A stretch of 32,591 nt of DNA, from positions 1-32,591 of the forward strand of contig JAJYXW010000110.1 of NCBI GenBank assembly GCA_021801525.1, read 5' to 3'. Source of the DNA: Actinomycetes bacterium (GTDB lineage Bacteria; Actinomycetota; Acidimicrobiia; Acidimicrobiales; JAJYXR01). The position numbers and the translations under genes were made by a program. The notes under the pieces were generated by a model, which made no database searches, was not told the DNA's origin, and saw only the letters and a program-made list of their open reading frames with translations. Position 1 is the first letter of the stretch, and the number at the start of each line of letters is the position of its first letter. This document shows, piece by piece, positions 1,579 to 6,899 of this stretch.

Positions 1579-1628
1579 GCTGGGCCGGAGGCTCACCCGG
1601 CCGCGTGGCCGCTCGAGTCGAACGAGGG
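1579..1628. repeat. Right copy of the direct repeat (native modC 3' end)
   Basis: This copy overlaps the last codons and TGA of the transporter ATPase gene and continues about 14 bases beyond it. It matches 119-169 at 49 of 50 aligned bases plus one indel. This copy is in frame with the complete gene, so it is taken as the original and the left one as the duplicate. Confidence 0.85.
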
Positions 1629-2714
1629 AGGGTCGCGGAGCTCGAGAGCGACCGTGGACCCCGGCTCGGGGACGGCCAACCCTGGCGGCACTGGCGTTGC
1701 CACGACGACCCCGTCCCTGCTGGAAGAGCGTGGGGCGCGAGCCCCCAGGAGAACCTCGACGTGGAGAGCGGGCCCGCGGGGGCGAACGCCGGTGACCACG
1801 CCTTCGACGATCGTCGACGGCTCTGCGTGCGGCGCCCTTGTGGCTGGAGGACCTGCCGCCATGTAGAGCGCGTCGGGGTGGATGCCGACCGATCTGCCTC
1901 GAAGTGTCCCCTCGGGGGTGGCACCCGGTGGCCGGCAGGCGAGCGCGTCGGCCGGAAGGAAGGCGACGTAGCCGAGCAGGCTCGCGACCCGCGTGCTCGC
2001 GGGACGGCGCACCAGCTCCCTGCTCTCTCCCACCTGTAGGAGGCGTCCCGCGTCGATCACGCCGATGCGCTCCGCGAAGGACTGGGCCTCCGCGAGGTCG
2101 TGGGTCACCAGGAGAGCCGGCGCATCCCTGAGTGCCGCCGCCTCCTCCAGCACGCCTGCGAGCTCGCGGCGAAGGGCTGCGTCGAGGCCTGTGAAGGGCT
2201 CGTCGAGGAGCAGCACCTCGAAGCTGCTCGCGAGCAGGCGAGCGATGGCGACGCGCTGGCGCTGGCCGCCGGAGAGGGCGGCGGGGCGCGCACCGAGGAG
2301 CCCCTCTATGCCGAGGCGAGACGCGAGCTCGGCCACCTTCGCGCGCGTGTCGGCTCCCCTGGAGCGAAGCGAGTAGCCGATGTTGGCTGCGACGCTCATG
2401 TGAGGGAAGAGGCCGGGACTCTGGCGGAGCAGCCCTACCCGTCGCTCGGCGAGGGGCAGCTCGGATCCGCCGCGTTCGCTCAGCACGCGCCCTGCGAGGG
2501 AAATCCGCCCGCTCTCGATCGGAACGGTCCCCGCGATCGCTTCGAGCATGGTGGTCTTCCCCGATCCCGAGGGGCCGAAGAGCGCGAAGCGCCCGCCGGC
2601 AGGCACGTCGAAGGCCGCCCGGACGTCGAAGGAGCGCCGCCGCACGACGATGCTCGCCGACAGCCCGCCGGCGGTGTCCCCTGCGCCGGCTGTGCCGGCT
2701 GTGCTGTGGCTCAT
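1593..2714 (-). CDS. modC: Molybdate/tungstate ABC transporter ATP-binding protein
   Basis: The 373-aa cytoplasmic ATPase powers the permease encoded just upstream. All motifs are intact: Walker A GPSGSGKT (47-54), Q-loop RQSP (about 97-100), signature LSGGQ (147-151), Walker B VLLLDE (167-172) and switch histidine in VTHD (H205). After the nucleotide-binding domain come about 140 residues with a regulatory TOBE-like character (IHPDALYMA and a VEGVV-type beta segment), as in ModC/WtpC proteins, which bind oxyanion there for feedback. The start is ATG at 2714-2712; it overlaps the permease stop in an ATGA arrangement, so translation is coupled. The gene order substrate-binding protein, permease, ATPase is typical. 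Molybdate versus tungstate (or sulfate) cannot be separated from the ATPase alone; the assignment rests on the binding protein and on the nearby Mo storage gene. Confidence 0.88.
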   Translation of the reverse strand: MSHSTAGTAGAGDTAGGLSASIVVRRRSFDVRAAFDVPAGGRFALFGPSGSGKTTMLEAIAGTVPIESGRISLAGRVLSERGGSELPLAERRVGLLRQSPGLFPHMSVAANIGYSLRSRGADTRAKVAELASRLGIEGLLGARPAALSGGQRQRVAIARLLASSFEVLLLDEPFTGLDAALRRELAGVLEEAAALRDAPALLVTHDLAEAQSFAERIGVIDAGRLLQVGESRELVRRPASTRVASLLGYVAFLPADALACRPPGATPEGTLRGRSVGIHPDALYMAAGPPATRAPHAEPSTIVEGVVTGVRPRGPALHVEVLLGARAPRSSSRDGVVVATPVPPGLAVPEPGSTVALELRDPPSFDSSGHAAG

Positions 2715-3565
2715 GGAACTGCGAGGTGCCGTGCTTCGATTCTCGCCGATCGCGCCCTCGCGCTCCAGAGGTACGCAACGAGCGGCAGGGGGAGCGCGAC
2801 CACGATCAGCAACAGCGCGAACGGCAGCGCAGAGGCGAGACCGCTCTCCTGCAGGCTCACCCATATCTGCATCGGGAGGCCGTAGGGGTGGTAGGCGATC
2901 ACGATGACTGCTCCGAAGGCGCCCATGGCGCGTGCCCAGGCGGTGGCGAGCGACATGGCGAGCCCTGGGGCCGCGAGCGGCAGGGTTACCCGCCTGAAGC
3001 TCCGAGCGCGGCTGTCGCCCAAGAGCGCGGCGTTCTCCTCGAGCTCGGTGCCCACTGCGGCGAAGGCAGACTGGGCGCCGAGGACGTAGTAGGGGGCCGA
3101 CTCGTAGACCTCGGCGACGACCAGGGCGAAGAACGTGTTGGACGCGGAAAGGTGGAGGTGCGCGAGAGCGCCGCCCAGGGGGGTGGCAGGCCCGACCATG
3201 AACACGAGCAGCAGGCCGATCACGAGCGGGGGCATGAGGAGGGGCACGAGAACGCCCGCCTCGAAGAGCCTCGGAGCCGGGAGGCGGTCGCGGGCCATCA
3301 ACCATGCGAGGGGGGTACCTGCCACAACGAGCACGCCGAGCGCGAGCGCGCTCGCCTCCAGGGACACGAACAATGGCGAGAGCGCCCCCGGAGCACCGAG
3401 GGAGGCGCGCGTGGCCGCCGGGGAGATGTGGGCGAGGAGCGCGCCGAGGGGACCGAGCAGGGCAAGCCACACCACGACCCCGGCGGCGATCGCTGCGACA
3501 GCGGAAAGTCTTATCGGGCGGGTGAGCACGAGCCTCGGAGCCGGCCGGTCCACCCGCGAAGACAT
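2711..3565 (-). CDS. modB: Molybdate/tungstate ABC transporter permease
   Basis: The 284-aa inner-membrane protein has about six hydrophobic segments (roughly 18-45, 65-90, 100-125, 143-165, 195-220 and 243-270). The EAA-type coupling loop that docks the ATPase is present at about 177-197 (ELEENAALLGD followed by RRVTLPLAAPG, where the E-x-A-x-x-x-G pattern is usual). It is of the ModB/CysT/WtpB class. The ATG at 3565-3563 follows the binding-protein stop after one base, and its own stop overlaps the next start by four bases, so the three genes form one translational unit. Confidence 0.88.
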   Translation of the reverse strand: MSSRVDRPAPRLVLTRPIRLSAVAAIAAGVVVWLALLGPLGALLAHISPAATRASLGAPGALSPLFVSLEASALALGVLVVAGTPLAWLMARDRLPAPRLFEAGVLVPLLMPPLVIGLLLVFMVGPATPLGGALAHLHLSASNTFFALVVAEVYESAPYYVLGAQSAFAAVGTELEENAALLGDSRARSFRRVTLPLAAPGLAMSLATAWARAMGAFGAVIVIAYHPYGLPMQIWVSLQESGLASALPFALLLIVVALPLPLVAYLWSARARSARIEARHLAVP

Positions 3566-3566
3566 C

Positions 3567-5983: not shown

Positions 5984-5995
5984 GCCGATCCTCCC

Positions 5996-6024
5996 GGAGA
6001 TCGATCCTTCTGGAGATCGATCCT
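5996..6024. repeat. Short direct repeat upstream of the MosB-like gene
   Basis: GGAGATCGATCCT occurs at 5996-6008 and again at 6012-6024, sixteen bases apart. Each contains the palindrome GATCGATC. The repeats fill the spacer between the FMN reductase and mosB-like genes and could be an RNA hairpin or a protein site. Confidence 0.6.
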
Positions 6025-6068
6025 CCTGGGGAATGGACGCGCCGGGTTCTAGGACGCGACGCTGTGGC

Positions 6069-6899
6069 ATGACCAACGAGTCGCCAATGCTCGACGAGCG
6101 CGCGCCGGGGCTCGCGAGCCGCCTGGTGACCGGTGCCCTCTCGGACGTGGAGCTCCTCGCCGAGACTGCCAGAGCCCCGGCGACGGCCCTGCTCCCGCAC
6201 GCGCATGTCGTGAAGATCGGTGGCCAGAGCATGATCGACCGTGGGCGGAGGGCAGTGTTCCCTGTCCTCGACGAGGTACGCGCCGCGCTCGCCGACAATC
6301 ACCTGATCATCGGCACGGGTGCCGGGACCAGGGCGCGCCATGCCTATAGCGTGGGTGTGGACCTCGGGATGCCGACCGGGGTGCTCACCACCCTCGGGAC
6401 CGGAGTCGCGCTCCAGAACGCCCGCATCCTCGCCTTCTTGCTCGCGCAGGATGGTATTCCGCTGGTGCTGCCGAACGAGTTCGGCCACCTTCCGCTCTAC
6501 CTGGCGGAGCGTCACGCCGTGATCTTCCCGGGGATGCCTCCGTACACCTTCTGGGAGCACAACCCCGACGTGGGGCAGATCCCACCGCATCGCACGGACA
6601 CCGGCTGCTACCTGGTGGCAGAAGTGTTCGGCGTAGCGTCCATGATCTACGTGAAAGACGAGGACGGCCTCTACACTGACGACCCCAAGCGCAACCCCGC
6701 AGCGACCTTTGTCCCGTACATCACCGTCGACGAGCTCCTCGACTCGGGCATACCCGACCTCGTGGTCGAGCGTCCAGTGCTCGAGTTCATGCGCCGGGCG
6801 GTACACGTACGGCGTGTCCAGATAGTGAACGGGACCGTGCCCGGCCAGCTCACCCGCGCGCTGGCCGGCGAGGACGTCGGGACCCTGGTGGTGGCCTGA
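6069..6899 (+). CDS. mosB: Molybdenum storage protein subunit, MosB-like
   Basis: The 276-aa protein has the amino-acid kinase (UMP kinase-like) fold and closely resembles the beta subunit of the Azotobacter molybdenum storage protein. That protein uses ATP to lock molybdate or tungstate into polyoxometalate clusters inside a hexameric cage. Matching blocks in order: VVKIGGQSMIDRGRRAVFP (47-65), LIIGTGAGTRARH (79-91), FPGMPPYTFW (153-162), IPPHRTDTGCYLVAE (171-185), VKDEDGLYT (195-203) and the C-terminal VQIVNGTVPGQLTRALAGEDVGT. These differ from true UMP kinases and agree with MosB in length (about 270 aa). ATG at 6069 gives the family length; in-frame starts at 6033 and 5937 would add residues with no homology. 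The gene lies 1.3 kb from a Mo/W transporter operon, which supports the role. No MosA-type alpha subunit is seen here, so a homo-oligomer or a distant partner must be assumed. Confidence 0.87.
   Translation: MTNESPMLDERAPGLASRLVTGALSDVELLAETARAPATALLPHAHVVKIGGQSMIDRGRRAVFPVLDEVRAALADNHLIIGTGAGTRARHAYSVGVDLGMPTGVLTTLGTGVALQNARILAFLLAQDGIPLVLPNEFGHLPLYLAERHAVIFPGMPPYTFWEHNPDVGQIPPHRTDTGCYLVAEVFGVASMIYVKDEDGLYTDDPKRNPAATFVPYITVDELLDSGIPDLVVERPVLEFMRRAVHVRRVQIVNGTVPGQLTRALAGEDVGTLVVA

Follow-up and report, generated by a model that had tools for sequence, protein, structure and literature searches.

The question raised by this locus is what a subunit of the molybdenum storage protein MoSto may be doing beside an oxyanion importer, in an actinobacterium with no sign of nitrogen fixation, when its partner subunit is missing from its usual place. 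MoSto is an (alpha-beta)3 heterohexamer of MosA and MosB (PMC6448029), with polyoxometalate-binding side chains reported as Glu129 and His156 (PMC4504029). The window, that is, the whole stretch of DNA that was analysed (32,591 nucleotides), is the first 32.6 kb of one contig of a high-GC assembly of 3.38 Mb, which is 93% complete and divided into 193 contigs. The reading favoured here, at a probability of about one half, is that of a neighbourhood for the uptake and storage of molybdate, possibly tungstate, in which a heteromeric store would have been reduced to a single subunit, MosB.

Gene content and association with oxyanion importers

A preliminary description of this DNA had placed an importer operon, an FMN reductase and a MosB-like gene within 5.3 kb, and Pfam and NCBIfam searches recovered every gene that it named (Table 1). 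It did not mention the ArfB-like gene that sits between the transporter and the reductase.

Table 1. Features around mosB in the window, with positions, strand and the matches on which each assignment is based
Feature	Positions	Strand	Evidence
ATPase, ModC/WtpC-like	1593..2714	-	ABC_tran 107 bits; best family TIGR02142 modC, 181 bits (cut-off 285)
Permease, ModB/WtpB-like	2711..3565	-	BPD_transp_1 49 bits; Mo_ABC_porter/ModB TIGR01581/TIGR02141 141/123 bits (below cut-off)
Substrate-binding protein, WtpA/ModA-like	3567..4745	-	SBP_bac_11 99 bits; WtpA PRK04168 81 bits (cut-off 355)
ArfB-like peptidyl-tRNA hydrolase (ribosome rescue), bystander	4835..5275	-	RF-1 domain 62 bits; PRK09256 ArfB 88 bits (cut-off 100)
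NADPH-dependent FMN reductase-fold protein	5348..5983	+	FMN_red 107 bits (above cut-off); 85 bases upstream of mosB
mosB, AA_kinase fold, MoSto beta subunit orthologue	6069..6899	+	phmmer to PDB MoSto beta 2e-87; MosB clade
Intergenic stretch, site of the mosA start in relatives	6900..7015		Without mosA remnant
DUF222-HNH gene directly after mosB, in the place of mosA	7016..8566	+	DUF222 61 bits; HNH 37 bits

The operon shares with WtpABC/ModABC importers the set of binding protein, permease and ATPase, and the best family matches of all three proteins are of molybdate/tungstate types, each below the curated NCBIfam cut-off. From these matches, the substrate class is likely molybdate/tungstate, with scores that cannot tell one oxyanion from the other. 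In G043, the sister genome, which belongs to the same family (loci L035/L048), the orthologous ATPase, permease and binding protein are 46%, 81% and 68% identical, respectively, and transporter and mosB have the same divergent orientation, but with other genes between them, including a relative of repeat-rich proteins that the window encodes at 10318-16470 (2050 aa, with a TIG domain) and 16567-18420 (617 aa), both with DUF2808 stretches.

Beyond the family, a Mod/Wtp-like permease is found in the fetched flanks of 36 of 80 mosB loci. When loci of at least 12 kb are considered, it is present in 28 of 54, compared with none of 20 control stretches (Fisher p = 2e-5), the controls being 20-kb stretches from genomes of one order and the mosB loci coming from many phyla. 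The uptake and storage neighbourhood is a real association, as the preliminary description had proposed for this locus, and its divergent layout is shared with the sister genome. Importer and mosB recur together at other loci. Of the FMN reductase, no homologue was detected at any of the 80 loci (E <= 1). The reductase had been put forward as a possible new partner of the storage protein, an idea rejected here; its absence from the other mos loci makes it either a bystander or a neighbour of recent date.

Several arrangements seen during these comparisons are worth recording. In two archaeal loci (L120:7561-11525, L121:7688-11576), mosB-mosA comes immediately after a WtpABC-like operon and is read in the same direction. 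Often, an ABC-type ATPase gene directly follows mosA (L051:11818-12498, L053:8552-9160, L057:11719-12384, L063:5781-6359, L096:11725-12414) and may encode another part of the store. Next to the transporter of the sister genome are a regulator with HTH_3 and PBP_like (PF12727) domains and an unclassified binding-protein-like gene without a Pfam match (L035:11374-12678 and 6892-8028), neither of which is carried by the window. One record titled Bacillota (L049) contains a transporter and mosBA close to those of the actinobacterial family, which may reflect mis-binning or transfer. Elsewhere in the window, a 617-aa frame (18526-20379) with an ETF domain and an ETF alpha FAD-binding domain is an apparent ETF beta/alpha fusion, and a phage-type integrase (29266-30252) is followed by a transposase-like gene on the opposite strand (30573-31451), both within 29266-31451.

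A MosB orthologue without mosA behind it

In phmmer comparisons with the MoSto chains in the PDB, the protein encoded by mosB has an E-value of 2e-87 for beta and 1e-55 for alpha. It is 55% identical over 260 residues to MosB of Azotobacter vinelandii MoSto (PDB 2OGX, 4F6T), and its fold is certain because of this identity to a solved chain. The columns typical of MosB are kept, with 83 of the 86 that are conserved among other MosBs retained. A tree built from 61 proteins separates MosA from MosB with full support, the Azotobacter subunits falling on the correct sides, and the protein pairs with MosB of the sister genome (84% identical) at 100/100 within the MosB clade. Alignment from the initial methionine with the sister protein MSTESLTLDDRAPG sets the start of the gene at 6069, not 5937. 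Judged by similarity and tree placement, it is a genuine MoSto beta orthologue, and the earlier suggestion of a real MoSto subunit is thereby borne out. As for the reported ligands, there is no Glu or His at positions 129 and 156 of Azotobacter MosB, and the region aligns poorly and is unconserved even among MosA relatives; the two side chains appear to belong to MosA.

The single really unusual feature of the locus, unmentioned in the preliminary description, is the absence of mosA. Among the best 80 of 422 relatives in public genomes, which come from many phyla, mosA lies directly after mosB in 78 loci, and in the remaining two the contig ends no more than 172 and 2 bases from the mosB match. 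In the sister genome it also follows mosB immediately. Here, tblastn of the window with two MosA proteins matched only mosB itself, and the 3' flank of the sister's mosA has no significant match in the 6900-7015 region. Displacement of mosA by the HNH gene that now follows, acting as a repeat or a mobile element, was considered and rejected, there being no second full-length DNA copy of this gene in the genome.

In the 93%-complete assembly as a whole, searches with a MosA protein and for the AA_kinase family returned only lysC, argB, proB and mosB. This is by itself a weak argument, because pyrH (UMP kinase), which must be present, was likewise not found; in the sister genome pyrH is located beside frr (L163:245-1557), and here it probably lies in the unassembled part of the genome. 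The absence of mosA from an otherwise invariant position is the stronger argument, in a case that rests on one assembly.

The open frame of mosB is intact, and a dN/dS of ~0.11 relative to the sister gene indicates purifying selection, which spans the whole time since the two lineages split, so that a function lost only recently would go unnoticed. When sister and outgroup are used to assign changes to lineages, MosB of the window has 12 and the sister 13, with no overall acceleration. Their distribution differs, as the last 27 residues, a well-conserved part of the family, hold six of the 12 changes in the window (post hoc binomial p = 5e-4) and three of the 13 in the sister. Three of these six, Val250, Thr256 and Asp269, are identical to the MosA of the sister, and Thr256 is present in no other MosB of the 81 compared, while the three closest relatives have it in their MosA. 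Maximum chi-square analysis against the sister's genes gives a significant breakpoint close to residue 250, with p < 0.0002 by permutation of amino acids and p = 0.002 for nucleotides.

These changes are a hint, not proof, that mosA was deleted via recombination between the tandem mosB and mosA genes. A MosB-MosA hybrid gene is unproven, given that at two other positions the likeness to MosA is an ancestral MosB state that was kept, that synonymous sites are mixed, and that the tail is not an outlier in a family-wide profile test, in which MosB of L050 gives an equal score. Alternatively, the tail of MosB may have adapted to life without MosA.

Possible roles of a solitary MosB

In the favoured reading of uptake and storage by MosB, the WtpA/ModA-like importer would bring the oxyanion into the cell, where MosB would bind it together with ATP and accumulate it, probably as a homo-oligomer that replaces the MosA-MosB cage. 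The stored metal would be supplied to molybdopterin enzymes of the type II DMSO-reductase and xanthine dehydrogenase/CODH families, and mosA would have been lost from its invariant place behind mosB, perhaps by recombination of the tandem genes. The more specific version, in which a non-diazotroph with its own importer keeps a single-subunit Mo/W store, formed by a homo-oligomer of MosB with a partly MosA-like tail after recombination removed mosA, is tentative and rather doubtful as a whole. MosB alone may not store metal, since the store as known is built from both subunits, as an alpha3beta3 heterohexamer.

The gene may also simply be missing from the assembly, since this is 93% complete and lacks pyrH, too. 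One such explanation, that mosA was relocated into the 7% of the genome that is unassembled and still contributes to an ordinary MosA-MosB cage, is unlikely but deserves some weight: the division into 193 contigs and the missing pyrH, which in the sister is next to frr, speak for it, whereas mosB and mosA adjoin at every readable locus among the best 80 and likewise in each further actinobacterial genome found to have the pair, and a move exactly into the missing part would be improbable. Slightly less credit is given to the idea that MosB is a remnant of a recent mosA deletion, which stores no metal and survives by inertia or in an altered role. The loss of the partner and the clustering of changes in the conserved tail would fit such a decay, but the intact frame, the retention of nearly all family-conserved columns, the unaccelerated overall rate and the low dN/dS all argue against it.

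It is improbable that the junction between mosB and the HNH gene is a chimeric contig, with mosA still behind mosB in the real genome. The assembly is fragmented and of the metagenome type, but the HNH gene is no DNA repeat in this genome and there is no shift in GC content at the junction; collapse of the two genes during assembly is countered by the divergence of mosB and mosA in the sister, with ~40-70% nucleotide identity in 20-codon windows. Least probable is a reading of the protein as a nucleotide kinase, UMP kinase or another, and not a store, perhaps even as a stand-in for PyrH. Although the AA_kinase fold is the same and pyrH was not found, PyrH models score only 50 bits (cut-off 158) and 28 bits (cut-off 244), the protein falls within the MosB clade, and the sister, with its closely similar MosB, has a normal pyrH-frr pair.

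With regard to the metal, the genome encodes three proteins of the xanthine dehydrogenase/CODH family above the family cut-off, and five matches to the molybdopterin oxidoreductase family. Of the five, three lie on a single contig and resemble alpha subunits of type II DMSO reductases, another is PhsA/formate-dehydrogenase-like, and the last is NuoG, which is not known to carry molybdenum. Neither a nitrogenase component-1 family protein nor an AOR-family tungstoenzyme was found in the whole assembly. The earlier expectation that, with no nif genes in view, the metal would serve another enzyme extends in this way to the genome, and on gene content molybdenum seems the likelier cargo than tungsten.

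Distribution of mos genes and implications for metal storage

In 2019, MoSto was said to lack known homologues in protein databases (PMC6448029). Among the best 80 loci (L048-L127), mosB-mosA pairs are now found in Planctomycetota, Chloroflexota, Cyanobacteria, Bacteroidota, Acidobacteriota, Gemmatimonadetes, Myxococcota and archaea. The preliminary description had linked such storage proteins to nitrogen-fixing Proteobacteria, which is too narrow for the family, as the mosBA of Planctomycetota, Bacteroidota, Cyanobacteria and archaea indicate. What the locus in the window has in common with the mosB-mosA loci found in Actinomycetota, Chloroflexota, Planctomycetota, Cyanobacteria, archaea and other groups is MosB and, in many cases, a Mod/Wtp-like importer close by. 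It differs from them in that all readable ones have mosA right behind mosB and none has the FMN reductase, which is the reverse of what is seen here. Compared with the MoSto of Azotobacter vinelandii, it has no MosA, has an importer near the gene and belongs to a non-diazotroph by gene content, in which the stored metal would serve molybdopterin enzymes.

Single-gene versions of Mos do seem to occur, but rarely. In another actinobacterial genome (G438, 94% complete), the only Mos-family gene is followed at once by genes for a TupA-like tungstate binding protein and for a permease (L132:830-2781). Like the genome studied here, it has one Mos-family gene beside an oxyanion importer; in contrast, its gene forms a long branch outside the MosB clade (tree of 61 proteins) and its importer is of the tungstate type, TupA. 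All other Mos-positive actinobacterial genomes that were found have two copies, and each of ten Azospirillum plasmid records has two Mos matches.

To our knowledge, the sole characterised store of the MoSto type needs two related subunits for its cage of polyoxometalate clusters. What may be new here, from the gene content of this locus, is a MosB without MosA, a variant of a system known only as a two-protein cage. If true, a natural store made of MosB alone would reveal whether a single subunit suffices and how the tasks are divided among the parts of the cage. Moreover, mosB-mosA is widespread across phyla and often lies by molybdate importers, so that storing metal would be a trait of bacteria and archaea at large and not a speciality of nitrogen fixers.
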